A stretch of DNA of 64,000 bases from NCBI GenBank assembly GCA_012719535.1, contig JAAYAC010000023.1, forward strand, positions 1-64,000, given 5' to 3'. The notes beneath the pieces were generated by a model, which saw nothing but the letters and a program-made list of their open reading frames with translations, searched no databases and was not told the origin of the DNA. The translations under genes were made by a program, and so were the position numbers. The DNA is from Syntrophomonadaceae bacterium (lineage in GTDB: Bacteria > Bacillota > Syntrophomonadia > Syntrophomonadales > Syntrophothermaceae). This document shows positions 13,549-42,374 of this stretch, one piece after another (position 1 is the stretch's first letter; the number at the start of each line of letters is the position of its first letter).

Positions 13549-13567
13549 CACAAGTCAATAGGATGTT

Positions 13568-13795
13568 CCTTGGGTGCTCCTGTTCCGTTGCCGGGCAGGG
13601 GATAATAGGGAACCAGGTGAGAATCCTGGACGGTCGCGCCACTGTGAGCGGGGAGCCACGTTCCCAAACAGGCCACTGTCTATCACTGAGTCAATCCCGT
13701 TGAGATTTCTGATACTGCGTACGGATTGATTGAGTGCCGGATGGGAAGGCGGGAACGAGCTGAGATCCGTGAGTCAGGAGACCTGCCCAAGGAAC
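13568..13795 (+). promoter_or_regulatory. Cobalamin (AdoCbl-type) riboswitch
   Basis: The expected elements occur in order: GGGTGCTCC at the 5' side, AATAGGGAA-CCAGGTGAGAATCCTGG (about 13603-13629), the conserved GCCACTGTGA (13638-13647), a variable arm, and the B12 box GTCAGGAGACCTGCC (about 13772-13786) near the 3' end. The aptamer is followed by a terminator and then a transport operon, so cobalamin is expected to switch the operon off by transcription attenuation. Ends are approximate. Confidence 0.95.
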
Positions 13796-13861
13796 CGCAT
13801 CTGCAACCTTCCGCGTGAGAGGGGGAATGCGCTTTGTACAGCTCTGTAGTGTACCGAAGCT

Positions 13862-13895
13862 AGACCTCATTTCCTCAGTGGAAATGGGGTCTTTT
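13862..13895 (+). terminator. Riboswitch expression-platform terminator
   Basis: AGACCTCATTTCC / GGAAATGGGGTCT form a 13-bp stem (one A-G/wobble position) with a TCAGT loop, followed by TTT. It lies between the cobalamin aptamer and the first gene, as expected for attenuation control. Confidence 0.8.
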
Positions 13896-14001
13896 GGTTG
13901 GTGGAGGCGGCGGGCATGGATGCATCCATCTGCATGCCTCAGCCTTATCTCAAGCATTTTGCAACAAGACACACGCAAAATGCGCACAAGGATGAGGAGG
14001 T

Positions 14002-16848
14002 ATGGGTTTGTTTCACAAAACTAAGGTAGCAGTCTCTCTGTCAGTCATCATCAGCCTTTTAGTAACCTTGTTTTGGCCATCCATCGTTCCCAACATAGCA
14101 ACGGCCGACACCTCCAGCGCTGAACTTGCGACCAGGGCCGTGCGCAACAACTACCAGTTGTACCGGGCGGGAAGCCCTGTCGATGACGGTTGGGGAAATT
14201 TCAGCGCTTACGATGCCTACGTATTGGCTGAGGCCGGCGCCCAACTGGATAGTTGGGTGTACGGGGACGAGAGCTTTAAGACTAAAGTCCTTGCTAGAAC
14301 TTATGCTACACTAGCTGAGCCTAACTGTAAGATCACTAACTCGTGGGGACAAGATGTCTACGCTTATTCCTCCAAACTGCTGGCCCAGCACCTGCTGGCA
14401 GCGCAGGCTTTCGACGAGACGGAAAAAGCAGCACAGTTATTGCAAGCGTTAAATGCTCGACAGGCAGCTTCCGCCAACGGGTCCTTTGACGGCAACCCTT
14501 TCAGCGACATTCCGGCTTTAGATCTGTTAGGAAGAGGCAGGGTAATAGACCAGGTCTATGACCCGGCGGCAGCAATCAACTATGTTCTGGACGAAAGGGA
14601 TGTCTATACCGGCGCCTGGACCAGCTCTTGGAACGACGTGATGGCTACCGCCCAGGCGGTGAGGGCTTTAGAATATTTAAGAGAATATGCCAGCCCTGAG
14701 CAGGCTGCTACTGTCACCGGAGCCATTTACCAGGGCCTGGCATGGCTACAGGCCCGGCAGCAAGCCAACGGCAGTTTTCAGGATGACTCAGGTTGGGATG
14801 ATCCGGCGGTGGACACGGCGGAAATTATCTCCACCTTGAAACTGCTGGGCATCGATCCTGCTAGCTGGGTCAGTTCAGAAGGGAAAAGCCCGGTGGACTA
14901 TATGGAAGGTGAAGTCCTGAACCAGGACGGCACCTTTGGCAGCTGCGGGAACATCGCGGACAATACCTGGGTTTTGGACGCCTATCTCATGCTGGGCGGA
15001 CAGCCCAACGCCGATGCAGCCTTGGACGTAACCGTAAGCCCGGCGGTGGCGAGTGTAGCTGTTGGAGAAACCCGTTCTTTTACTGCCACGGCCTACAAAG
15101 TCGGCGGCGGGAAAGTAGAGATAACCGACCGGGCAAGCTGGTCGGTGCTTGAACCTAGTATAGCAGCCATAAATGATGGCGGCGTTCTGACGGGTATTGC
15201 CCAGGGGAGCACAGAGGTAACAGCCAGTTACGAAAATCTGGCTGGCAGGGCCACGGTTACGGTCACCGGAACTCTTAACCCCGGGACCCAAACAGGAGAA
15301 ACGCCTCAAGCGCAAAACATAACCGTAAACATCGCGGTGGTGGGGAAGGCCGGGAACCTCCTGTTTGGCCCGGGTTCGGTCACCATCTCTTCCACAGACC
15401 CGTTCGGCCTGACCGCTATGGGAGCCCTGGCCAAGACGGGCTTGAGCTGGGAACTTTCACAGCAATGGGACGGGTTTATTGTTGCCATCGCCGGCGAAAG
15501 GAATGAAGGAATGAACGGCTGGTGTTATACTTTAAACGGAAACATGCCCAGTGTGCTGGCCCGCGATAGAATCGTGAGCGAAAACGACAATATCATCTTC
15601 TGGTACAGCACCAGCGCCCCGTCTTCCGGTCCCAAATGGGAAGATCTGAACAGCGGCAGGTACTCCCAACAAGAGGTGAAAACAACGACCATCAGCCCAG
15701 AGATGGTGAAGGCGGTCAAGGAAACCGTTGCCGGTTACAGGAATGAGCTGGCGCAGGTGCTGACCGGAACTAGAATCCTTAATGCCGAAAAGGTCATGTC
15801 CAAGTCTGAAGCCGAGGCCTTAAAAAAGGAGCTCGATGACAACCAGGTATCCGTAACCGTGAAGGCAGGGGCGGAAGAGTCCGTGCTGGCAGATGCCAGG
15901 CAAGAGGTGTCGCTCTTCATCCCGGCCAAGGCCTTGACCGAGACGGTAGAAATATCGGTTAAGGAGTTGACTTCGTCCCAGGTTGAGGGACAGGCCCCGG
16001 GTAAAATCGCTTCATCCCTTTACGAGTTCGGGCCGAGCGGCACCAAATTTGCGTTACCAGTAAATATTACCATTAAGGTACCGATAACCGAGGAAATAAA
16101 ACTTGAGTCCCTGACCCCGGCCTGGTACGACGAAAGCAAAAAAGAATGGATCCCGATTCCCGGAGTGATAGACGCGAAAAAGGGATTAGCCTTTTTCGAA
16201 ACCGACCACTTCACCAAGTTCGCGGTAATCGAGCTTAAAGCGGCAGTAGAGAAGACTCCTGGCAAGGACGAGGTCAGAGTCACGTTCCCCGACCTGGGAG
16301 AGAAGTTTGCCTGGGCCCGGCCGGCAATAGAATCTTTGGCCGCTAAGGGGCTGGTTCGGGGGACCGGCAGGGGCTTCGAGCCCGGCCGCCCGGTGACCAG
16401 GGCCGAATTCGCGGCCATGGTGGCCAACGCCTTGTCTCTAACCCCAAACCAGGTCGCAGGTACCTATTTTAAGGACGTCAGGTTTGACGACTGGTATGCA
16501 GGAAGTATTGGTGCCGCTTGGGCACGAGGGCTTGTAGCCGGGTACGGTGACGGGAGTTTTCGGCCCACCTGTAACCTGACTCGCAATGAAATGGCCTGCA
16601 TTCTCGCCCGCCTGCCTAAGATGGTCGCGGGTACAACCCCAGAACAGGTCTTTATCATAGATATGGAGGCAGTACCGGTTTGGGCACAGAGCGGGGTTGT
16701 CTATGTTCTCCAGCACGGGCTTATGAGAGGACACGAGGATCACACCTTTAGAGGCGCTCAGCTAGCCACCAGGGCAGAAGCAGCGGTTGTTGTGCACCGG
16801 TATCTCACTTCTTGCCCCACCAGCCCTGATATGCCGGCTTCGCAATAA
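14002..16848 (+). CDS. SLH-anchored transcobalamin-like surface protein
   Basis: A 948-residue secreted protein. The signal peptide ends near residue 36 (NIATAD). Domains in order: an alpha/alpha-toroid of the prenyltransferase/squalene-cyclase-repeat type (about 40-335, with ARQQANGSFQDD-like repeats), a Big_2 Ig-like domain (about 343-425), a DUF4430/transcobalamin C-terminal-like domain (about 437-545, GMNGWCYTLNG ... DNIIFWYS), a ZU5-like beta region (about 600-745) and three SLH repeats (about 765-940) for cell-wall anchoring. The toroid plus DUF4430 pair mirrors the two domains of intrinsic factor and transcobalamin, which clamp cobalamin between them. First gene behind the cobalamin riboswitch. 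GAGGAGGT abuts ATG 14002; TTG 14008 has better spacing and may be the true start. Confidence 0.88.
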   Translation: MGLFHKTKVAVSLSVIISLLVTLFWPSIVPNIATADTSSAELATRAVRNNYQLYRAGSPVDDGWGNFSAYDAYVLAEAGAQLDSWVYGDESFKTKVLARTYATLAEPNCKITNSWGQDVYAYSSKLLAQHLLAAQAFDETEKAAQLLQALNARQAASANGSFDGNPFSDIPALDLLGRGRVIDQVYDPAAAINYVLDERDVYTGAWTSSWNDVMATAQAVRALEYLREYASPEQAATVTGAIYQGLAWLQARQQANGSFQDDSGWDDPAVDTAEIISTLKLLGIDPASWVSSEGKSPVDYMEGEVLNQDGTFGSCGNIADNTWVLDAYLMLGGQPNADAALDVTVSPAVASVAVGETRSFTATAYKVGGGKVEITDRASWSVLEPSIAAINDGGVLTGIAQGSTEVTASYENLAGRATVTVTGTLNPGTQTGETPQAQNITVNIAVVGKAGNLLFGPGSVTISSTDPFGLTAMGALAKTGLSWELSQQWDGFIVAIAGERNEGMNGWCYTLNGNMPSVLARDRIVSENDNIIFWYSTSAPSSGPKWEDLNSGRYSQQEVKTTTISPEMVKAVKETVAGYRNELAQVLTGTRILNAEKVMSKSEAEALKKELDDNQVSVTVKAGAEESVLADARQEVSLFIPAKALTETVEISVKELTSSQVEGQAPGKIASSLYEFGPSGTKFALPVNITIKVPITEEIKLESLTPAWYDESKKEWIPIPGVIDAKKGLAFFETDHFTKFAVIELKAAVEKTPGKDEVRVTFPDLGEKFAWARPAIESLAAKGLVRGTGRGFEPGRPVTRAEFAAMVANALSLTPNQVAGTYFKDVRFDDWYAGSIGAAWARGLVAGYGDGSFRPTCNLTRNEMACILARLPKMVAGTTPEQVFIIDMEAVPVWAQSGVVYVLQHGLMRGHEDHTFRGAQLATRAEAAVVVHRYLTSCPTSPDMPASQ

Positions 16849-16923
16849 GCAAAGCCACCAGTCCTCGTGTACCGGGACGCAAGGACAAGGAATTGAAAAT
16901 CTAGCACAGGCGGGGATGATTTG

Positions 16924-18129
16924 ATGAACAAAAGCCGGTTGAGGTTTCTGGTGCTTCTCGTCATGCTGGTGCTGACCGTCGCTGCCGGTTGTGGCAGCAG
17001 GGCAACCCATGACACTGGCAGCCAGAAGTCCGTTGCCAACAGTACCACAACAGGTGAAAAGACGAGAGTTACCTCACCCTCTTGGGCAGAAGACAGTACG
17101 GGACAGAAAAGCAGGGATACTCCAGCGCAAGATGGGGTCCCGGCGGTTCAAACCCTGGCATCACCCCAGACCGCCAGCACCAGGGTTGCCGACAAGTCCC
17201 GCGGCCCACAAGCACTTGCGGACAAAGGCACTCTGGTTGACGGCAGCCCTGGAGAGACTGCCGGTGCCGCTGCCACCTCGGTAAAACTGCTAGTAACCCG
17301 GGATTTTGGCAACACGACCTTACTGGAAAAACAGGCGCCACTGAAAAAAGGCTGGACTGTGTTAGATATTCTGCACTCCAATGCCGAAGTGAAAACTGCA
17401 TACAGCGGCGGTCTGGTTACCGGAATCAACGGGGTGGAATCTCGCAGCGGGGGGCTTTCGTCCCCACGGCATGATTGGTTTTACTTCGTCAACGGTATCT
17501 GTGCGGATACAGGCGCATCAGATTACGAACCGCAACCTGGAGAATCGGTGTGGTGGGACTACCATCCCTGGGACAATACCGGGCTCATGAACTCAGCCGT
17601 CATCGGTTCTTATCCTGAACCGTTTCTCCACGGCTACCGGGGCAGGGTCAAAACCACTATTGTTCTGAGCCCGGCGAACACCCTTGAGCTGGCGACAAGC
17701 CTGCAGGCAGCATTAAGGGCGAAGGGCGTCGCAAGCGTGTGTATTAGAGAGTTAAACGAAAACCTGTTGGCAGAAAGAGCGGGGCCTACCATTGTCGTCG
17801 GCGAATGGAAGGATCTAGAAAAATTTTCCTGGTTAGCCCATCTGAACCAGGGGTACAAGAGAAATGGCACCAACGTACACTTTACCGGTGATTCCGTGGA
17901 ACTGCTCGATTATCGAGGACAGCCCCGGCGGAGTTTCACCGAAAACACTGGGGTCATTGCCGCTACCGGCGAAGGACTGGGAGATGACAGCCCGCTCTGG
18001 TTGGTGGCAGGTGTGGACCGTAAAGGCTTGGAAGGGGCGGTCGCAGTCCTGGCCCGGGATCCTGAAAAAGTCTGCGGGATGTACAGTGCAGCAATAATAT
18101 CGGGAAAGGCCATCAGTTTACCCCTCTAG
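16924..18129 (+). CDS. DUF4430 (transcobalamin C-domain-like) lipoprotein
   Basis: A 401-residue lipoprotein with lipobox TVAAGC (Cys near 24), then a low-complexity Ser/Thr/Gln-rich linker to about 115. A DUF4430 domain at about 118-230 runs SVKLLVTRDFGNTTLLEK ... GWTVLDIL ... HDWFYFVNG ... WWDYHPWDN. The last 170 residues are an unrecognised alpha/beta domain. The domain is the membrane-side counterpart of the one in the preceding SLH protein. A likely role is passing cobalamin to the ECF transporter encoded next. ATG 16924 chosen with GGCGGGGA upstream. In operon, 75 bases after the SLH gene. Confidence 0.85.
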   Translation: MNKSRLRFLVLLVMLVLTVAAGCGSRATHDTGSQKSVANSTTTGEKTRVTSPSWAEDSTGQKSRDTPAQDGVPAVQTLASPQTASTRVADKSRGPQALADKGTLVDGSPGETAGAAATSVKLLVTRDFGNTTLLEKQAPLKKGWTVLDILHSNAEVKTAYSGGLVTGINGVESRSGGLSSPRHDWFYFVNGICADTGASDYEPQPGESVWWDYHPWDNTGLMNSAVIGSYPEPFLHGYRGRVKTTIVLSPANTLELATSLQAALRAKGVASVCIRELNENLLAERAGPTIVVGEWKDLEKFSWLAHLNQGYKRNGTNVHFTGDSVELLDYRGQPRRSFTENTGVIAATGEGLGDDSPLWLVAGVDRKGLEGAVAVLARDPEKVCGMYSAAIISGKAISLPL

Positions 18130-18148
18130 CCAAAAGGAGAGAAAAGTT

Positions 18149-19063
18149 ATGCTGGTATACCGGCAAAAAGACAACCTGATCCACAGGCTTCATCCTTTGA
18201 CCACGGTGGCCTTTGTTGGGGTTATATTCTTTTTGTCCCTGTTATTCTCTCACCCCTTTTTCCTTTTGGGTCTATTCGTAGCCTTAGGGGCGGTAATCCT
18301 GGCCTCCGACAGCTATCGTGAATGGAAAGGTTATCTGAAGTGTACGCTGGGGATGATGGCGCTGCTTATGCTTATCAATGCGTGCGTAGCCCAGGCCGGT
18401 TCCACCGTGCTGATGGCTGGCCCGAGGGTGCCGGGCTTAGGTAACGTCAGGATAACCCTGGAGGAATTGGCTTTTGGAGCTGGAATGGGCCTGAGGCTGC
18501 TGGTGATAGTGAGCGTTTTCTGCCTGTACACGCACGCACTCCATCCGGACAAGGTCTTGAAACTACTCAGCCGGTGGGGGAGCAGATCGGTCCTGGCTGT
18601 AACTCTGGCTACCCGCCTTTTTCCTTTAATGATAGAGGATTTTCACCGGGTAACCGACGTCCAGCGCTGCCGGGGAGTAAAATTTGCCACTGGTAAGTTT
18701 CAGGAGCGCGTTCATAACCTCGGCCCGGTGGCCAGCGTGCTCCTGCTATCTTCGTTAGAGCGTTCCTGGCAGCTCGCGGAGTCAATGTACGCCAGGGGCT
18801 ACGGATCCGGCCCCCGCACCTGCTACACCTCGGAGCTGTGGCGCCCTCGGGACCATCTGGTAATTCTGGCCCTGCTGGTGGCCATGGTCATTGCGGTCGG
18901 AGCCGCCTGGCACGGTTGGTCCGCCTACAACTACTATCCCAGGCTGGCAAGCGTCAGCCGGGACGAACTGAAGACGGCAGCTGCCTTTACCTTTTTTCTT
19001 TCCGTTCCTGCCATTCTGAACCGGGGGTGGAAGAAGTGGCCGTGGTTACAATCGAGGATCTAA
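18149..19063 (+). CDS. ecfT: ECF transporter T component
   Basis: A 304-residue membrane protein of the CbiQ/EcfT family. It has several N-terminal helices, then the long cytoplasmic coupling region with the two Arg motifs: RCRG near 172 and the canonical Ala-Arg-Gly at 215-217 (SMYARGYG). It couples ATP hydrolysis to movement of the S component. AAAAGGAGAG precedes ATG 18149 and the 3' end overlaps the ATPase gene by 28 bases. Operon context points to cobalamin or a related corrinoid rather than cobalt ion; no CbiN or CbiM is present. Confidence 0.92.
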   Translation: MLVYRQKDNLIHRLHPLTTVAFVGVIFFLSLLFSHPFFLLGLFVALGAVILASDSYREWKGYLKCTLGMMALLMLINACVAQAGSTVLMAGPRVPGLGNVRITLEELAFGAGMGLRLLVIVSVFCLYTHALHPDKVLKLLSRWGSRSVLAVTLATRLFPLMIEDFHRVTDVQRCRGVKFATGKFQERVHNLGPVASVLLLSSLERSWQLAESMYARGYGSGPRTCYTSELWRPRDHLVILALLVAMVIAVGAAWHGWSAYNYYPRLASVSRDELKTAAAFTFFLSVPAILNRGWKKWPWLQSRI

Positions 19064-20742
19064 CCTACTACTACCCCGGGACGGAAAAGCCGGCCCTGGA
19101 AAACATCAACCTGGTCATTCCCGAGGGACAGTTTGTTCTGGTAGTCGGAGCATCCGGAAGTGGAAAATCAAGCTTGATCCGGGCTGTAGCTGGGTTGATT
19201 CCTGATTTTTTCGGCGGGACATGTGGAGGCAGCATCCTCCTCGACAACATCGAATTGCGACGGCTTGACCGGCGATCCCTGGTACAAAAGGTGGGAACGG
19301 TTTTTCAAGACCCGGAGGCACAGATGGTGATGACCAGTGTTGAACAGGAGATAGCTTTCGGGCTGGAAAACCTGGGCTTACCACCTAGCCTTATGCAACG
19401 GAGAATGATGGAGGTCTCCAGTGCCCTGTCCTTGTCAAAATCTTGGCACCGTTTCGTCCCCGAGCTGTCAGGGGGCGAAAAACAGAAGGTGGCTCTGGCT
19501 TCGGTGTTGGCAATGCAGCCGGAAATACTGTTGCTCGACGAGCCCACCTCCCAGCTTGATCCCGTTGCCGGTGAGGAGATACTGACCACGTTGAGGCGAT
19601 TAAACGAAGAAACCGGTATGACCGTCATTCTCAGCGAGCAGCGGCTGGAACGCTGTTTCCACCTAGCTGACCGGATACTGGTCATGGAGGAAGGACACAT
19701 CGTGTGGGACCATTGCGTTTCTCAACCTATGACTGAGTTGACCTCCAGAGCTGGAAATTCCTTTCTTCCTCCGGTGGCGAGGCTTTTTGCCAGCGCAGGC
19801 TGCCTGGAGGTACCGCTGACCGTCAAGCAAGGGCGCCGCCTCCTGAAGTCATATAACTGTGCTTCCGTGTTTCCTGCGCCAGCCACCGTCCATCCCCAAA
19901 AGAAGCCAGCAGCAGTGCAAACAAGCTGCAGCCAGGACCTACTGGACATACAGGACCTGTGGTTTACCTATCCCCAGGCAACCGAAGCACTGCGGGGAGT
20001 CAATCTCCGCATCCAACCGGCCGAGTTCGTGGTGCTGATGGGAGAAAACGGAGCAGGCAAGACTACTCTGCTGAAGAACATCAACGGGTTGTTGCGGCCC
20101 AGCCGGGGGCAGGTGCGGATCCTGGGCCGCAATACCCGCAAGGTGCCGGTTGAAGAGCTGGCGGCTACAGTTGGGTACCTGTCCCAGTATCCCGGCGACT
20201 ACCTGTTCCTGCCCACGGTGGAGAAGGAAATAGCTTTTACCTTGCACAACCTGGGCCTCAGGGATGATGGTATCGGCCAGCAACTTCTAACCCGGCTTAA
20301 TTTGACCGGTTGCGTAACCAGAAATCCCCGCGATCTGAGCAGCGGAGAACGCCAGCGGGTGGCGCTGGCGTCAGTCCTGGCGGCAAGGCCAAAACTGCTG
20401 CTTCTGGATGAACCCACCCGGGGCTTGGATTACCGGCTAAAGGAAGAACTGGGGAATATTCTTTTGGAGCTCAAGGCCGAGGGAACAGCTATACTTATGG
20501 TAACCCATGATGTGGAATTTGCCGCTGAATATGCAGATGATATAGTGTTAATGGCCAACGGGAGCATCATTGGCAGGGGAAGCAAATACGAGATGCTCAC
20601 GGGGTCAACCTTTTATTCACCCCAGGTCAGCAAGCTGTTTAACAACATTGTTCCCGGAGTGGTAACCTTGGACCAGGCTCGAGAAGTGCTAACTCATTTG
20701 ACCGGGTTTGGCAAAAATAGAGCCCTGGTAATGCTCAGATGA
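19036..20742 (+). CDS. Fused ECF transporter ATPase (EcfA-EcfA')
   Basis: A 568-residue protein with two complete ABC ATPase domains. Domain 1 has Walker A GASGSGKSS (38-46), signature LSGGEKQK (144-151) and Walker B LLLDEPTSQLDP (about 165-176). Domain 2 has Walker A GENGAGKTT (336-344), signature LSSGERQR (434-441) and Walker B LLLLDEPTRGLD. Most ECF systems encode these as two subunits, so this is a natural fusion. The frame is open to 18838, but homology begins at VVTIEDLTYYYPG. GTG 19036 (or 19042) inside the ecfT 3' end is the start, with GGGGGTGG upstream. Confidence 0.92.
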   Translation: MAVVTIEDLTYYYPGTEKPALENINLVIPEGQFVLVVGASGSGKSSLIRAVAGLIPDFFGGTCGGSILLDNIELRRLDRRSLVQKVGTVFQDPEAQMVMTSVEQEIAFGLENLGLPPSLMQRRMMEVSSALSLSKSWHRFVPELSGGEKQKVALASVLAMQPEILLLDEPTSQLDPVAGEEILTTLRRLNEETGMTVILSEQRLERCFHLADRILVMEEGHIVWDHCVSQPMTELTSRAGNSFLPPVARLFASAGCLEVPLTVKQGRRLLKSYNCASVFPAPATVHPQKKPAAVQTSCSQDLLDIQDLWFTYPQATEALRGVNLRIQPAEFVVLMGENGAGKTTLLKNINGLLRPSRGQVRILGRNTRKVPVEELAATVGYLSQYPGDYLFLPTVEKEIAFTLHNLGLRDDGIGQQLLTRLNLTGCVTRNPRDLSSGERQRVALASVLAARPKLLLLDEPTRGLDYRLKEELGNILLELKAEGTAILMVTHDVEFAAEYADDIVLMANGSIIGRGSKYEMLTGSTFYSPQVSKLFNNIVPGVVTLDQAREVLTHLTGFGKNRALVMLR

Positions 20743-20765
20743 TACTTCAAGCAGGAGGGATTCAG

Positions 20766-22313
20766 GTGAAAACAAAAAAAGCAGCTACCCGTCTCTGTTT
20801 GCCGGTCTTGCTTGTTTTCCTTATCACCAGCACGGCTTTTGCTGGTGCTTCGGGTGCCGGTGCACAGGCGATGCCAAGCATCAGCAAGGCTATCGGTTTT
20901 CTACATCGCATACAGAACCCGGACGGCGGCTTCCCCAGTAAACCTGGGGGCCCAAGCAATCCAGCCGTTACCAGCTGGGTCATTTTAGCCCTGAAAGCTG
21001 CCCAGGAAGACGTAACCAGCCCCTCCTGGGCGCCATCCGGGAAAAGCCCGGTTGACTACCTGAAGACTTGTGAGTATCCCTTGCAGCAAACCTGCGACTA
21101 TGCCCGGTTGCTGCTGGCTCTCTCGGCCTCACAACAGGGAACGAAATACCGGGGCATTGACCTGGTAGAAAAGATAACCTCCTTTCAACAACCTGGGGGA
21201 GAGTTTCTCCAGCCTGCCCAGGGGGAAAAGGGGATGATTAACGCTCACATGTGGTCTTGCCTGGCACTGGCTTCAGCGGGGAAAAAGGTTCCCAACAGCC
21301 AGAAAGCGCGGGAATGGCTGCTTGCTCGCCAGAACGAGGACGGGGGCTTTGGCTGGCTGGAAGGCGGGCTGAGTGACACGGATGATACCGGGGTAGCCTT
21401 ACAAACCCTAGTCTTGCTGGGAGAAGACCCCAAGACTTCTCCAGCGATAAAGAAAGCGCTCAATTACTTGCAGGGGTGCCGGGAACAAGACGGCGGATTC
21501 AACAGCGGCGATGCGTGGAAAATAACTGGCGCCAATGCCGCTTCCGATGCCTGGGTTCTGCAGGGCTTGATAGCTGTAGGGGAAAACCCTCAAAGCACCA
21601 AGTGGTCAATGAACGGCAGGAATGCGATAAGCCATCTCGTCAGCCTGCAAAACAGCGATGGCTCTTTCAATTGGAAGGCGGGCACGCCCTCCTCTCTGGT
21701 TACGATGACCGCCTATGCCATAATGGCTCTGGCCGGAAAGCCTTTCCCATTGCAGGCTGATGGCGGCATTCAATTTCCGGCTTCCGTCCCGACCCGCTTT
21801 TGCGACCTTCCTTCCGAACACTGGGCATATGAGCCCATCATGAAACTGGTGCAGGCGAAGGCTCTGAGCGGTTACCCGGATGGCAGCTTCAGGCCGCAGA
21901 ATCCCGTGACCAGAGCTGAGTTCGCGGTTTTTCTGGTGCGCGGCCTGGGATGGGAAGAAAACTCAGGCAGCACTTCTTCGCCTGGATTTGCAGACGTTTC
22001 GCCGAACCACTGGGCTTATAGGGCCATCTCCACCGTTGCCAGCAAGGGTTATGTTAAGGGCAAACCTGGGGGTGTATTCGATGCCAACGGCAAGATAACC
22101 GGAGCTGAAGTAGCGAGCATACTGGTAAGGGCTCTGCCCAGCTGCCAGACAACCGCCCTCGCCAAAGGTCCTTACTGGTATTCGGGTTATGTGCAACTTG
22201 CCCAGGAAAACGCCTTGTTGTATCCAGGCTTTCGCGCTGACCAGCGCGCTACGAGGGCGCAGTGCGCGTACAGCCTCGAGCGGCTGAGACAACTTCTGCG
22301 GCTGGAACAGTAA
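20766..22313 (+). CDS. SLH-anchored alpha/alpha-toroid surface protein
   Basis: A 515-residue secreted protein with a signal peptide (MKTKKAATRLCLPVLLVF... STAFAGA, about 1-27). A prenyltransferase/squalene-oxidase-repeat toroid spans about 32-330, with QW-like repeats IQNPDGGFPS, ARQNEDGGFGW, CREQDGGFNSG and LQNSDGSFNWK. Two to three SLH modules lie at about 345-510. It resembles the toroid half of transcobalamin without a DUF4430 domain, so it may pair in trans with the DUF4430 lipoprotein. GTG 20766 chosen because GCAGGAGGGA ends five bases upstream; the in-frame ATG at 20739 would overlap the ATPase stop and lacks this site. Confidence 0.85.
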   Translation: MKTKKAATRLCLPVLLVFLITSTAFAGASGAGAQAMPSISKAIGFLHRIQNPDGGFPSKPGGPSNPAVTSWVILALKAAQEDVTSPSWAPSGKSPVDYLKTCEYPLQQTCDYARLLLALSASQQGTKYRGIDLVEKITSFQQPGGEFLQPAQGEKGMINAHMWSCLALASAGKKVPNSQKAREWLLARQNEDGGFGWLEGGLSDTDDTGVALQTLVLLGEDPKTSPAIKKALNYLQGCREQDGGFNSGDAWKITGANAASDAWVLQGLIAVGENPQSTKWSMNGRNAISHLVSLQNSDGSFNWKAGTPSSLVTMTAYAIMALAGKPFPLQADGGIQFPASVPTRFCDLPSEHWAYEPIMKLVQAKALSGYPDGSFRPQNPVTRAEFAVFLVRGLGWEENSGSTSSPGFADVSPNHWAYRAISTVASKGYVKGKPGGVFDANGKITGAEVASILVRALPSCQTTALAKGPYWYSGYVQLAQENALLYPGFRADQRATRAQCAYSLERLRQLLRLEQ

Positions 22314-22332
22314 GAACTCTGCCGTAAAGGGC

Positions 22333-23061
22333 GTGAAAGGCAAATTGTGGAAAAAAGGTTTCTGGCTAATTGTCATTGCCATAGCTTCAATACTCGTGGT
22401 CAGCTTAGTGCCTGGAAGTATGCCCGGCGGCGCCAGCTGGGCTTTGCTTGCTACTCTCATCGTGTCCCTGGCGATTACGGCTTTTTTCTGGCGTTTTGAA
22501 AAAAGCACTAACTCTTCTCTTGAGGTAGCCCTGATCGCGACTATGGCTGCTCTGGCCGCCGTATCACGAGTGCCGTTTGCCATTATCTCGGGACTTCAGC
22601 CCACCACATTCATAGTCATGATCACCGGGTATGTTTTTGGAGCGCAAACCGGGTTTGTAGTGGGGGCAGTGGCTGGATTAGTGTCCAATTTCTTTCTGGG
22701 CCAAGGCCCCTGGACACCCTGGCAGATGTTCGCCTGGGGTATGTGTTGAGTGGCCGCGTCAATACTGGCAGGCATGCAGCGCGAGTTTAGATTGGCCGCT
22801 TTCACGCTGTTGGGGGGGCTGTGTGGCTTCCTCTTCGGGTGGATAATGAACTTCTGGCACTGGGCAGCCTTCGTTTTCCCGCTGACCTGGAAGACATTCC
22901 TTGCTACTTATGCTGCCAGCTTTCCTTTCGACACCTTGCATGCAGCAGGAAATATCCTTTTTTCAGTTTTATTTGGCAAGCGATTCTACTTGGTTCTAAA
23001 CAGGTTCAAGAAGAAGGCGTTATGGCACCCTCTCCCCAGTCAGAACCCTGATGAGAAATGA
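22333..23061 (+). pseudogene. ECF S component interrupted by one in-frame TGA
   Basis: One continuous frame encodes 138 residues, a TGA at 22747-22749, then 103 more starting GTG 22750. Both halves are one protein: helices near 10-28 and 34-52, then an S-component core (LQPTTFIVMITGYVFGAQTG ... GQGPWTPWQMFAWGMC, stop, VAASILAG ... FDTLHAAGNILFSVLFGKRF). As the last gene of the cobalamin-riboswitch operon it should be the substrate-binding subunit. A GGA-to-TGA change (Gly expected after WGMC) would explain the stop. Alternatives are a sequencing error, stop-restart at TGAGTG giving two half-proteins, or readthrough. SD before GTG 22333 is weak. Confidence 0.8.
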
Positions 23062-26121: not shown

Positions 26122-27213
26122 TTACTTTTTTACCGACTTGGCATATATATACCCGGTTTTATTACCATACTTGACGCGGTACCAGGACCCCTTTTTTCCC
26201 AGAACGGGGAGCTTAACACCCTTTTTGACTATGCCTATCCTTTTGTATTTGACGCCCGGCCCGGTCCGCACACTGGCCTGAGCGACGATCACCGTGCAGG
26301 TTTCCGCCTTGGCAGAAGAAACAGAGGCGCTCGTGCTCTTTGGAGCAACAGCGGCTGCCAGTTGGCTGGTTGGTATGGCGTCAGGTGTAAACAACGGTTT
26401 GCCGTATTTATCCTTGCCAAACGTGTAAATGATGGACTGCCCTTTGACACCGGTAATGAAGTCTATAAAGGCCATCGCCGCTTTATGGTGGATACCTGGG
26501 TACTTGGCGGGGTTAACCGCGATTACCCCGTACGGGTTGAAAAGCAACTTGTCTCCCCTGACCATCTCTTTTAGGTCGGTTTTGTTACGCCAGCTCAGGT
26601 AAGTAGCTTCATCGGTGAGGGTATAAGCGTTCATCTCATTAGCCATCATGAGGGTGTCGCCCATTCCCTGGCCTGACTCGAGATACCAGCGCCCTTGCGG
26701 GGTTATGCCGGCAGCTTTCCAAATGTCCAGCTCCTTCTTGTGAGTGCCCGACTGGTCGGCACGCGAGACAAACCTGGCTTTGGCTCCGGCGATTTGCTTG
26801 AAAGCCCCTACTACATCCTTCATCCCCTTTATTTTGGCCGGATCGTTAGCCGGTCCCACGATTAGGAACTCGTTGTGCATTACATCCTTGCGGTTGATGC
26901 CAAAGCCGCTTGCCACGAATTCATCCTCAGCCTTACGGGAGTGCACCAGCAGTACATCGGCGTCGCCCCTCTTGCCCATCTCTATGGCCTGGCCGGTCCC
27001 AACCGCTACCACTTTCACCTTGGTATTGTATTCCTTCTCAAAGACCGGAACCAGTACGTCCAGAAGCCCAGAATCCTGGGTACTGGTCGTGGTGGCCAGC
27101 GTCATGGTACTCTCCACCGTTTCCGCACCGGCTACCGCTGGAAACAGGGTTAAGGCAAACAAGGCCAGCACTATTGCCGCTATAACATATCTGTTACGCT
27201 TTATGCCCTTCAT
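26122..27213 (-). CDS. tupA: Tungstate-binding protein TupA with SH3b tail
   Basis: A 363-residue secreted protein with signal peptide MKGIKRNRYVIAAIVLALFALT... VAGA (about 1-30). Then comes a TupA-type oxyanion-binding domain (about 34-270) with the diagnostic LATTTSTQDSGLLD, VAVGTGQAIEMGKRGDADVL, and SRADQSGTHKKELDIW. A Ser/Ala linker leads to a bacterial SH3 domain (about 300-363, VRTGPGVKYKRIG ... GKKGSWYRVKYGNKTGYIYA) that probably binds the cell wall. An SH3b tail on TupA is unusual. No transmembrane anchor or lipobox is visible. It follows the second binding protein in a Moco-riboswitch operon. Confidence 0.92.
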   Translation of the reverse strand: MKGIKRNRYVIAAIVLALFALTLFPAVAGAETVESTMTLATTTSTQDSGLLDVLVPVFEKEYNTKVKVVAVGTGQAIEMGKRGDADVLLVHSRKAEDEFVASGFGINRKDVMHNEFLIVGPANDPAKIKGMKDVVGAFKQIAGAKARFVSRADQSGTHKKELDIWKAAGITPQGRWYLESGQGMGDTLMMANEMNAYTLTDEATYLSWRNKTDLKEMVRGDKLLFNPYGVIAVNPAKYPGIHHKAAMAFIDFITGVKGQSIIYTFGKDKYGKPLFTPDAIPTSQLAAAVAPKSTSASVSSAKAETCTVIVAQASVRTGPGVKYKRIGIVKKGVKLPVLGKKGSWYRVKYGNKTGYIYAKSVKK

Positions 27214-27233
27214 CTTCTCCCACTCTCCTTTCT

Positions 27234-28520
27234 TTACTTCAGTCCGGCCGGAACCTTGCTGGCATCATTAAACTGAGCCGGCACTATGGGTATTTGTCCC
27301 GCTTTAGTCATGATGTCCTGGCCGTCCTGGCCCAGCATCATTTTGGCAAACTCCAGGGCCAGCACCTTATTAGGGGCATTGTTGGGTATGGTTATAGCAT
27401 AGACAATGGGCTGCCCCACCTGTTCAACCTTGGTCCCAGGTGATGTTCCCACCGTGGCAACTCTGGCATTTTTATAGAAATCTGCATACTTGGTACTGGA
27501 AAGGTTGACCTCCTCCGGCAGAACAACATACCTGAGGTTGTTTTGCCTGGCCACGGAGAGGTATTCAAAGGCGTAGTCCACCTTACCCGCCTGCAAAGCG
27601 GCGATAAGGTCGCCGGCTGCGTCGTAAACTTGTTCGGCAGGGCAACCTTTGACCAGTCGGTCATACAGGCCGGGAACATTATAGTGCTTCTCAGCCAGTT
27701 GCCATACCAGCAAAGCCCGGTAGCCAGCTGGATCCTTGTCGGGGTTGGTGTGACAGTAAGTAACTCCGGGACGTAAGAGCACCTCATACCAGTTAGTAGC
27801 GTTTACCTCGTTACTATACTTCGACTTGTCGGTGTAGCACAGGACTATTTCGTTTCTGGCAAACATGGCGTACCAGTCCGTGTACCTGGGGATCATTAGC
27901 TGGTCGAACACCGAGTAGTCAGCTGAAGCAATCAGGTCGGCCTTCCTGCCCTGCTCGGTCACCTTGCGGGCACAATCCAGCGAACCGGAAGATTCGTAGT
28001 AGATGCGGGCTCGCGGGTACATCTCCTGGAATTTGGCTTTAAGGTCAGCCAACGGAGCCTTAAGGCTGCCGGCGTGGAATATCGTCAGGGTATTGGTGTC
28101 GGCGGGAACAGTGACAGAAACAGTATTAGTGTTCTTATCCCAGGACACGCTCCCCCCCAGACCTTCCGCTACCGGGCGCAGGGGTACGTACGCTCGGTTG
28201 CCGATGATCCTGATAAGGCCCTGGAGACTTGCAGCCTGCCCGCTTACCTTTATCTCATTCGCCGCTAAATTCAACTGCACGTCTTTGTCATTCTTGCTTA
28301 GAAGAATGGTCTGCGCCGTTGAATTGCATTTCGCGTCAATATCAAACATGTCAACGATGGCAGACACCGGAACCAGTAATGTCCCCTTTTCCAGTACCGG
28401 CTGAGGAAAAGGAGTATAGCTTTGTCCCCCAACTGTAAAGTTCGGGCTGGCGGCGTTCGCCACCGCTGCCGTGGCCAGAACTATTAGAACCGCCAGCATT
28501 ATGCTTAGACTCTTCTTCAC
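27234..28520 (-). CDS. WtpA/ModA-like oxyanion-binding protein with stalk domain
   Basis: A 428-residue secreted protein. The signal peptide is about 1-24 (MKKSLSIMLAVLIVLATA). A copper-amine-oxidase-N-like (stalk) domain at about 27-135 reads TLLVPVSAIVDMFDID ... GNRAYVPLRPVAEGLGGSVSWD. A WtpA/ModA-type binding domain follows (about 142-428, TLTIFHAGSLKAPLADLKAKF, ESSGSLDCARKVTEQGRKAD, ARNEIVLCYTDKSKY). The family binds tungstate or molybdate. The added domain probably holds it in the cell wall. GTG 28520 is fixed by GGGAGGT six bases upstream. First gene behind the riboswitch; no permease or ATPase gene lies nearby. Confidence 0.9.
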   Translation of the reverse strand: MKKSLSIMLAVLIVLATAAVANAASPNFTVGGQSYTPFPQPVLEKGTLLVPVSAIVDMFDIDAKCNSTAQTILLSKNDKDVQLNLAANEIKVSGQAASLQGLIRIIGNRAYVPLRPVAEGLGGSVSWDKNTNTVSVTVPADTNTLTIFHAGSLKAPLADLKAKFQEMYPRARIYYESSGSLDCARKVTEQGRKADLIASADYSVFDQLMIPRYTDWYAMFARNEIVLCYTDKSKYSNEVNATNWYEVLLRPGVTYCHTNPDKDPAGYRALLVWQLAEKHYNVPGLYDRLVKGCPAEQVYDAAGDLIAALQAGKVDYAFEYLSVARQNNLRYVVLPEEVNLSSTKYADFYKNARVATVGTSPGTKVEQVGQPIVYAITIPNNAPNKVLALEFAKMMLGQDGQDIMTKAGQIPIVPAQFNDASKVPAGLK

Positions 28521-28589
28521 CACTAAACCTCCCTGTATGATAAATAATTGCTGCCTGCCGCATCGCAGTGAACCCCATTTCCCGGCTAC

Positions 28590-28621
28590 AAAAAACGGGC
28601 TAAGCAAGGAAAGCTTAGCCC
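28590..28621 (-). terminator. Expression-platform terminator of the Moco riboswitch
   Basis: On the minus strand GGGCTAAGC / GCTTAGCCC form a perfect 9-bp stem with a TTTCCTT loop followed by GTTTTTTG, placed between the aptamer and the first binding-protein gene. Confidence 0.88.
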
Positions 28622-28642
28622 GATCGTGAACGTACCAACACG

Positions 28643-28745
28643 ATTAGCCCTCCTTTCCAAACACGGGAGGCACGAGCGTTTCCCCTCGCACCCTATCGGC
28701 CCACGAACCATGATCGCGAGATTTTAGGTTACGTGGGCTCGGAGA
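28643..28745 (-). promoter_or_regulatory. Molybdenum/tungsten cofactor (Moco-type) riboswitch
   Basis: The minus strand reads CCGAGCCCACGTAACC, TCATGGTTCGTGGG, GTGCGAGGGGAAACGCTCGT, GCCTCCC, GGAAAGGAGGGC in order. These are the helices and GNRA-capped stems of the Moco RNA motif. Position and downstream terminator suggest shut-off of tungstate/molybdate uptake when cofactor is abundant. The P3 hairpin appears to be present, which would favour Moco over the P3-less Tuco form, although tupA suggests tungsten. Ends approximate. Confidence 0.82.
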
Positions 28746-28986
28746 ACGTAGTTTTTATTTAATTGATTATTGTTGTAAGTTGTTCGCTATACTTAGCCAA
28801 ATTCCTCCCCCACCCCTGCATTTTTTCTTATTTATCGGGGTGGTGTTTCTGGAAACAAGCTCGGTACGTATGCCAAATCAATCCCGTGCGGGCCTGATAA
28901 ATAAGTTTTCTGGAGCCCTCGGTCCAACCTATGAAACCGCTTGGCCCGCCCTGCTGGTACAGAAATTAACAGCCGCAGGAGGAATT

Positions 28987-29419: not shown

Positions 29420-31168
29420 GTGAAGATAACTTTGATTGAGCCGAAACCACCGGGCAAGCACGTATTCAATACAGTTAAAATGCCGCGGCTGGGACTTCCC
29501 ATCTTGGGGACTATCCTGCAGCAACAGGGTCACGAGGTGAACATTGTCTATGGGACCCATCGTAATGTGCGTGTGTCCGACCTGGCTGGATGTCATCTGA
29601 TAGGTATATCTTCTACCACCTCGACTGCTCCCCTGGCCTATCATCTGGCTGATTTCGTCCGTTCGCAGGGAATACCTGTGGTAATGGGGGGACCACATGT
29701 CAGCTTCCAGGTGGAGGAAGCTCTCCAGCACTGTGATTACGTTATAAGAGGAGAGGGAGACACAACCTTTCCTGCCCTGGTAGAATCTCTGGCCAGGGGA
29801 GAAGCGCCCCTGGGTGTCCGCGGCGTTAGCTTTTACCATAACGGCGAACTTATACACACTCCTTCCGGTCCCTGGGCAGATGTTGGTGGTATCCCTTATC
29901 CGGAAATATCAATATTCGGGGGAGTAAAGCTATCTACCTATCCCGTAATGACCTCGCGGGGTTGTCCATATAACTGCACCTTCTGCAGCGTAACTCCTAT
30001 GTTCGGTCACAAGACCCGCTGCCGCAGTATAGATGCAATCCTTCAGGAATTGGAGCAGTATAAAGGCAAACAGGTATTCTTTGTAGACGACAATTTTACT
30101 GCCAATTCCGCCCGAGCCAAGGCCTTGATGCGGGCTATTATTGAACACAATGTTGTTCCCAGGCGCTGGTTCGCACAGGTGCGTACCGAGGCGGCCCGGG
30201 ATGACGAACTTCTCAAGCTGATGCGCGACAGCGGTTGCGGTTACGTTTATGTGGGTATGGAGTCGGTCAACCCGAAAACATTGCAAAGCTACAACAAGCA
30301 TCAGCAGGTTTCCGATATCGAATACTGTATCAAGCGTTTTCATGATTACGGAATAATGGTGCACGGCATGTTTGTTTTCGGCAGCGATGAAGATACGGCG
30401 CAGACCATAGAACAGACTGTAAAGTTCGCGTGCGAAAACAAGATTGATACCGTCCAATTCCTTATCCTCACTCCCTTGCCCGGTACCCGGACTTTTACCG
30501 ACCTTAAGGAAACAGGTCGCATACTCACCTACGATTGGAGCAATTACGATGCCCACCACGTAGTCTTCAATCCGTTGAACATGTCGCCGCAAGAACTTCA
30601 GGTAGAGACGGTGAAGGCTTTCAAGCAGTTTTATTCATTTGCCAACATTTTTAAGAATGTCTGGGTGAGCGGTTGGAGGTCCGTGGCCTTCCGCGCCTTG
30701 GGTTACTGGCTGGTAAGGCAGTGGGAAAAAGAAAACAAGTGGTATTACCAGGCTCTTGATGACATGTGTTCTTCCAACACCTTTTCAAACCCGCTTAATC
30801 AGCAGCCCCATGTAATCAAAGTAATCAAGAACCGGCTTTTGAGTATCGAGCTTGTCAGTGAAGGTACCGCCGCTGTGGCCAAAGTAACCGGCAAGCTTGG
30901 AGATACGTCTATGAGCAAAACCATTAAGTCCTTCCTGAAAGCGCTGAACAGCACTTATCAGAACCTGTTAATCGATGCGGGAGACCTAACCTTCGTTTCG
31001 GAAACAGCTCTCGTTCGTTTTATGAATGCCTTGAATAGAGCGACCGTTAAAGCACACCAAACCATAGTCAGGCTGCCGCTCTCCCATAAACGCCTGTTCG
31101 AGCTGATGGCTATGTATGACATCGAAATACCCACCTACGTCATAAGGGAAGCTGTGCCTGAGCCATGA
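29420..31168 (+). CDS. B12-binding-type radical SAM protein with STAS domain
   Basis: A 582-residue protein. An N-terminal cobalamin-binding-like Rossmann domain spans about 1-140 (MPRLGLPILGTILQQQGHEV ... VVMGGPH). A radical SAM domain follows with Cys-x3-Cys-x2-Cys in SRGCPYNCTFCSV near 180-190 and VFFVDDNF and GMESVNPKTL downstream, then a DUF4070-like region (about 370-450). A C-terminal STAS-type domain at about 475-575 reads VAKVTGKLGDTSMSKTIKSF ... NLLIDAGDLTFVSETALVRF. Substrate unknown; related enzymes methylate or rearrange lipids and antibiotics. GTG start with CAGGAGG upstream. Its last six codons coincide with a glycosidase-like gene fragment, so the native 3' end may be lost. 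Confidence 0.85.
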   Translation: MKITLIEPKPPGKHVFNTVKMPRLGLPILGTILQQQGHEVNIVYGTHRNVRVSDLAGCHLIGISSTTSTAPLAYHLADFVRSQGIPVVMGGPHVSFQVEEALQHCDYVIRGEGDTTFPALVESLARGEAPLGVRGVSFYHNGELIHTPSGPWADVGGIPYPEISIFGGVKLSTYPVMTSRGCPYNCTFCSVTPMFGHKTRCRSIDAILQELEQYKGKQVFFVDDNFTANSARAKALMRAIIEHNVVPRRWFAQVRTEAARDDELLKLMRDSGCGYVYVGMESVNPKTLQSYNKHQQVSDIEYCIKRFHDYGIMVHGMFVFGSDEDTAQTIEQTVKFACENKIDTVQFLILTPLPGTRTFTDLKETGRILTYDWSNYDAHHVVFNPLNMSPQELQVETVKAFKQFYSFANIFKNVWVSGWRSVAFRALGYWLVRQWEKENKWYYQALDDMCSSNTFSNPLNQQPHVIKVIKNRLLSIELVSEGTAAVAKVTGKLGDTSMSKTIKSFLKALNSTYQNLLIDAGDLTFVSETALVRFMNALNRATVKAHQTIVRLPLSHKRLFELMAMYDIEIPTYVIREAVPEP

Positions 31169-42125: not shown

Positions 42126-42128
42126 CCT

Positions 42129-42202
42129 AAGGCAACCCGGCCACCCTGGACTCTGTCCGTAGGCCCGTGGTTTTGCGTCCTTCCCTTTCGGAAAGTTTGC
42201 CT
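42129..42202 (-). promoter_or_regulatory. Cyclic di-GMP-I (GEMM-I) riboswitch
   Basis: The minus strand reads GGCAAAC, TCCGAAAGGGAAGGACGCAAA, CCACGGGCCTACGGAC, then GGTGGCCGGGTTGCC. The GAAA tetraloop of P2, its receptor region with GGACGCAAA-CCACGGGCCTA, and the closing stem match the GEMM-I consensus. It lies about 330 bases upstream of the PTPS-related gene, followed by a terminator, so it should control the XrtG operon. Confidence 0.9.
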
Positions 42203-42374
42203 TCAAGTTTTCATTTGTGAATTATATGTCTTAATAATAGCAACCAAACAATCAATTGGCAATATGTTTGTTTTCTCCCCGGACTTCCTTATTTGCTGCC
42301 TATTTGCGCTCAACCGTGCTATAACTTCCCGGAACCTGAGGAATGCTACAAGAAAAAGCAAGGTGGTGTTGTAC

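Follow-up and report, generated by a model that had tools for sequence, protein, structure and literature searches.

A predicted corrinoid scavenging operon combining transcobalamin-like surface proteins with a CbrT-type ECF transporter in a Syntrophomonadaceae bacterium

Little is known of how Gram-positives and other anaerobes that lack an outer membrane capture scarce B12 before importing it, and by the textbook account ECF transporters work without a soluble or separate binding protein. A locus of a Syntrophomonadaceae bacterium (GenBank assembly GCA_012719535.1, contig JAAYAC010000023.1, positions 1 to 64,000; this stretch of 64,000 nucleotides is the window) raises the question whether an ECF transporter might be served by capture proteins of its own at the cell surface. 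The initial annotation proposed that an operon in the window encodes such a system. All operon parts that it named were found where it had placed them, with one correction, an in-frame TGA in the S gene. A riboswitch and a hairpin are followed by six plus-strand genes, which were checked against Pfam:

13555..13804, + strand, cobalamin riboswitch aptamer RF00174 (cmscan 116 bits, gathering threshold 31.5, E=2.2e-28)
13862..13892, + strand, hairpin resembling an intrinsic terminator, located ahead of the first gene and after the aptamer (13 bp stem, loop of 5, T-run)
14002..16848, + strand, SLH-anchored transcobalamin-like protein, 948 aa (Pfam, AF2, Foldseek)
16921..18129, + strand, DUF4430 lipoprotein, 402 aa (PF14478, 59.4 bits)
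18149..19063, + strand, EcfT of the CbiQ family PF02361 (77 bits), CbrV in the cbrUVT naming
about 19042..20742 (start codon approximate), + strand, fused EcfA-EcfA' ATPase, CbrU in the cbrUVT naming (TIGR04521/TIGR04520 above cut-off, two copies in tandem)
20739..22313, + strand, second SLH protein, 524 aa, with signal peptide, toroid and SLH and without DUF4430 (Prenyltrans, SQHop_cyclase_C and SLH above cut-off)
22333..23061, + strand, S component of CbrT type with an in-frame TGA at 22747-22749 (an ECF S component by Pfam; family profile to 6fnp_A)

The aptamer score and the 13-pair stem with its T-run agree with the earlier claim that a riboswitch and a terminator lead the operon; in the region, 3 terminator-like sites were observed versus 0.7 expected. 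The aptamer is the sole cobalamin riboswitch of the genome (2.49 Mb, 203 contigs, 98.4% complete). As the genome encodes no more than two DUF4430 domains, both of them inside the operon, and as the riboswitch-linked set recurs, with a cobalamin riboswitch present at 18 of 20 loci from related genomes (class-level set), the gene set is more than a chance assembly. The fused ATPase carries two full ABC motif sets, both with Walker A/B and signature motifs.

Judging from sequences and structure models, the operon most probably is repressed by B12 and allows a corrinoid-auxotrophic anaerobe of the Syntrophomonas-Syntrophothermus group to scavenge corrinoids, with surface capture ahead of dedicated ECF import (probability of roughly 0.85). 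When cobalamin is scarce, the riboswitch would allow transcription through the terminator, as its family suggests. The S-layer-anchored protein, composed of toroid, Ig linker and beta-grasp DUF4430 domain, would then bind a cobamide outside the membrane and close on it between toroid and beta-grasp. The DUF4430 lipoprotein and the second SLH toroid protein might act as further half-clamps relaying the ligand to the membrane, where the dedicated EcfT, the fused EcfA-EcfA' and the CbrT-type S component would import it with ATP.

The S component points to the substrate. A profile built from 13 intact relatives had its closest match among all solved structures in CbrT of Lactobacillus delbrueckii (6fnp_A) at E=8.8e-21, and no other S component scored better than 0.08. 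The first half of the S protein of the window alone retrieved CbrT at E=2.7e-9 and no other match up to E=1, and two further single S sequences reached it at E=5.9e-14 and 1.1e-13. CbrT is a proven importer of cobalamin (Cbl) and cobinamide (Cbi) (PMC5997447). This kinship, taken with the riboswitch, makes a corrinoid the likely substrate of the operon on sequence grounds; it would presumably be a complete cobamide. ECF-CbrT of L. delbrueckii likewise combines an S component of the same family with EcfT and two ATPases; however, its ECF module also serves other S components and its description includes no capture protein (PMC5997447), whereas the window operon has a dedicated module, fused ATPases and co-encoded surface proteins.

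The genome appears to need what such a system would deliver. Four B12-binding domains score above cut-off in it, including one encoded on the same contig as the window. A radical SAM protein with a B12-binding domain (window 29420-31168, + strand) is a likely user of the imported cobamide. Searches of the draft genome with one marker family each found no CbiD, no CobS and no BtuF-type binding protein (Peripla_BP_2); the genome therefore looks cobamide-auxotrophic, apparently unable to make or to complete cobamides, and seems to have no BtuCDF route.

The in-frame TGA of the S gene weighs against the scavenging reading, as an intact S frame is present in 13 relatives and absent from the window assembly. 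The importer may be broken in the window organism, either by a real nonsense mutation accompanied by operon decay or with uptake taken over by another S component, and we regard this as unlikely while taking it seriously. The TGA falls on a Gly codon that is invariant (13/13 aligned relatives), and the codon directly after it is GTG, hence two fragments could be made at best. On the other hand, the frame is open on both sides of the TGA without any other lesion, the remaining operon genes are intact, B12-binding enzymes are present although no BtuF-type route was found, and the assembly, a draft in 203 contigs, may contain a base-call error at this position. A genuine TGA would mean a truncated importer in this strain; given that no BtuF-type route was found and that the assembly is a draft, an error of sequencing is no less likely. 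Readthrough as selenocysteine was also considered and is unlikely, since the relatives have Gly at this codon; as to a recoding signal, the region 3' of the TGA folds no better than shuffled sequences (z=-1.3).

The predicted coupling of riboswitch, DUF4430 and ECF genes was borne out well beyond this genome. A relative of the toroid-DUF4430 region of the first protein occurs in 21 of 63 genomes of the class. Across the 20 related loci the gene order is mostly kept; identity of the ECF genes is 42-70% at most loci and drops to 34-42% at the most distant ones (42-63% and 34%, respectively, for EcfT). Among 300 genomes of the phylum, DUF4430 is encoded in 88 of the 91 with the S component versus 6 of the 209 without it (Fisher p about 1e-64, genomes being counted as if unrelated). 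Searching a single genome of each species with the S-component alignment yielded 443 relatives. The best 80 of these come from Clostridia, Moorella, Dehalococcoidia, Thermoplasmatota, an Armatimonadetes bin and Latilactobacillus, and they provide 55 loci at which EcfT is present and the upstream sequence extends for 2.5 kb or more. These encode the ATPase in 55/55 cases, DUF4430 in 54/55, a toroid in 51/55, and toroid and DUF4430 within one protein in 37/55. With the covariance model, a riboswitch was detected no more than 1.2 kb from the first gene of the operon at 33 of the 42 loci (again from the best 80 of 443) with a visible 5' region. The other nine, archaeal and Dehalococcoidia loci included, gave no riboswitch match, which leaves a corrinoid ligand less certain there.

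Several loci depart from the common arrangement. In three (L036, L043 and L044), two tandem toroids precede DUF4430 in the first protein. At five loci from Moorella and related organisms (L082, L085, L090, L095 and L132), another cobalamin riboswitch lies downstream of the S gene, at a distance of about 0.5-7 kb. Four loci from archaeal bins of Thermoplasmatota and of the DHVE2 group (L112, L114, L119 and L131) encode the DUF4430 lipoprotein with EcfT, EcfA and S, and no toroid or riboswitch matched within the stretch examined.

The putative capture proteins differ in their domain content. The 948-aa SLH protein consists of a signal peptide, an alpha6/alpha6 toroid (aa 34-333), Big_2 (aa 343-421), a DUF4430 beta-grasp domain (aa 460-545), a ZU5-like segment and three SLH domains. 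Its DUF4430, Big_2 and three SLH domains exceed the Pfam cut-offs; the toroid received no Pfam call and is instead recognized by 12 helices in the structure model. The DUF4430 domains of this protein and of the lipoprotein score 39.7 and 59.4 bits, respectively, versus the curated cut-off of 23.8. The Gly-Cys of the lipobox is kept across an alignment of 15 relatives. The C-terminal part of the lipoprotein (aa 215-402), which matched no Pfam family, forms a further conserved domain, found across phyla at 36 of the 55 loci (from the best 80 of 443 S relatives). The idea that a two-domain clamp is anchored both to the S-layer and to the membrane may apply to the first SLH protein, which has both halves, but not in full to the others: the lipoprotein has DUF4430 only and the second SLH protein the toroid only. 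The broader proposal of corrinoid capture coupled to ECF import has its backing from the CbrT-like S component, the B12 riboswitch, the B12 enzymes alongside missing CbiD, CobS and BtuF, and the carrier-like fold, with the whole putative clamp confined to the first protein.

The fold comparison with human transcobalamin suggested for this protein was run on residues 34-555. In the AlphaFold2 model (pLDDT 91.5), twelve helices are followed by an Ig-like domain and then by a beta-grasp domain, whose helix (439-444) precedes two short strands (450-452 and 460-463). Such a post-helix hairpin insert is the defining feature of the transcobalamin clade within the SLBB superfamily (Burroughs et al. 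2007, PMC1796856), and according to the model it is present in the DUF4430 beta-grasp. In a Foldseek search against all PDB chains, the best match was human transcobalamin (7qbf, E=3.1e-9), with haptocorrin and intrinsic factor next; the top 17 matches comprise 12 vertebrate B12 carriers and 5 matches to Big_2. For a relative without Big_2 (L074, model pLDDT 89), the top 15 of 15 PDB matches are vertebrate B12 carriers (2.2e-10 to 2.9e-7), followed by RabGGTase at 1.3e-4. The alignments to the carriers cover both domains, and the isolated transcobalamin beta domain matches at a target-normalised TM of 0.67-0.77; the global rmsd is 11-15 Å, so that the likeness is one of domain by domain and a corrinoid-sized cleft shared by the two domains is only a possibility, and this value weighs against the scavenging reading. 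Vertebrate transcobalamin, intrinsic factor and haptocorrin likewise have a 12-helix alpha6/alpha6 toroid followed by a beta-grasp domain. The bacterial forms differ from them by an Ig-like Big_2 that most of them have between the two domains, by an SLH or lipid anchor and by the lack of a detectable sequence match.

At the sequence level, transcobalamin was not reached in searches of the PDB with the toroid-DUF4430 profile or with the lipoprotein profile, and a profile of 41 diverse DUF4430 domains retrieved there only the DUF4430-like 3u7z (E=0.006), again without reaching transcobalamin. PF01122, the Cobalamin_bind family, matched none of 21 members at E<=1. A link to the animal carriers drawn from sequence alone was consequently rejected, and the missing match also counts against the scavenging reading.

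An improbable alternative is that the operon imports B12 while the surface toroid and DUF4430 proteins are no corrinoid clamps and instead serve as an S-layer tether or bind a polysaccharide or other ligand. The mutual orientation of the domains may differ from that of the carriers, SLH and Big_2 are generic surface modules, the toroid fold is common to terpene cyclases and prenyltransferases, and a reviewer of the 2007 paper cautioned that SLBB ligands may be diverse (PMC1796856). Nevertheless, the B12 carriers come first among the toroid folds of the PDB, by a wide E-value gap and over both domains; the beta-grasp appears to possess the hairpin of the transcobalamin clade; and DUF4430 tracks the CbrT-type S component nearly one to one.

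Cobalt transporters too can be under cobalamin riboswitches, and an EcfT of the CbiQ family and an ATPase with matches to cbiO models would suit one, but a CbiMNQO-type cobalt transporter is highly improbable and was rejected, as CbiM and CbiN are absent from the operon genes, EcfT scores 50.1 bits versus the CbiQ equivalog cut-off of 111.8, the S component is CbrT-like, and cobalt would be of no use for B12 synthesis in a draft genome in which no CbiD was found. The cobalt reading could also draw on Burroughs et al. (2007), where such operons are called CbiO/CbiQ; that paper predates CbrT, and the S component is not named there.

Corrinoid scavenging by proteins of this kind has precedents. 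Bacterial toroid-SLBB proteins in CbiO/CbiQ-like operons, with members named from Desulfotomaculum, Moorella and Syntrophomonas, were predicted to be B12 scavengers and proposed as the source, by transfer, of the animal carriers (Burroughs et al. 2007, PMC1796856). Those proteins (DUF4430, PF14478) share with the present one the fusion of a toroid to a beta-grasp with post-helix hairpin, as well as the CbiO/CbiQ-like gene neighbours. CbrUVT is a recognised B12 uptake assignment in excerpts of PMC6593275 and PMC8123684, and one entry in a table of Lacticaseibacillus proteins reads "additional lipoprotein component of putative cobalamin ECF transporter" (PMC9963975, proteome data). The predicted CbrUVT system of these excerpts has apparently the same gene set (i.e., duplicated ATPase, T component, CbrT and lipoprotein); they give names only and draw no link to transcobalamin (PMC6593275, PMC8123684, PMC9963975). 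B12 is likewise captured at the surface or in the periplasm before import by the BtuG, BtuH and DUF4465 binders of Bacteroides and by BtuB/BtuF; BtuG, BtuH and DUF4465, however, serve BtuB and BtuCDF across an outer membrane, and are set apart from the window proteins by name and literature. No ligand-binding experiment on DUF4430 was found in the open-access literature searched, where the domain is mentioned by name in six papers.

While the scavenger idea and the animal connection of toroid-SLBB proteins thus date from 2007, the link to CbrT, the coupling to the riboswitch, the model-based fold matches and the nearly one-to-one co-occurrence numbers are new. The last of these provides a concrete, testable function for a domain still called one of unknown function. 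Corrinoid binding by the capture proteins would make them working bacterial counterparts of the animal B12 carriers and would open the idea of a bacterial origin, put forward in 2007, to biochemistry and phylogeny. A wider generalization, which we favour by a narrow margin, is that a whole group of ECF transporters depends on extracellular transcobalamin-type clamps, sometimes split in two proteins, whose ancestry is common with the animal carriers.

A split arrangement is seen in Latilactobacillus fragifolii (L133, 4937-7351), where the toroid resides on a protein ending in LPQTG and DUF4430 on a separate membrane-anchored protein. The pair adjoins EcfT, EcfA-EcfA' and a CbrT-type S component, and the separation of the two domains in this operon suggests that the halves could work in trans.

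The window contains two further riboswitches, both on the minus strand. A molybdenum/tungsten (Moco) riboswitch (28634-28756, 79.4 bits) adjoins two same-strand genes for solute-binding proteins (26122-28607, - strand), one with a copper-amine-oxidase-N domain and the other with SH3_3. The second is a c-di-GMP-I-GGC riboswitch (42127-42210, 64.6 bits).
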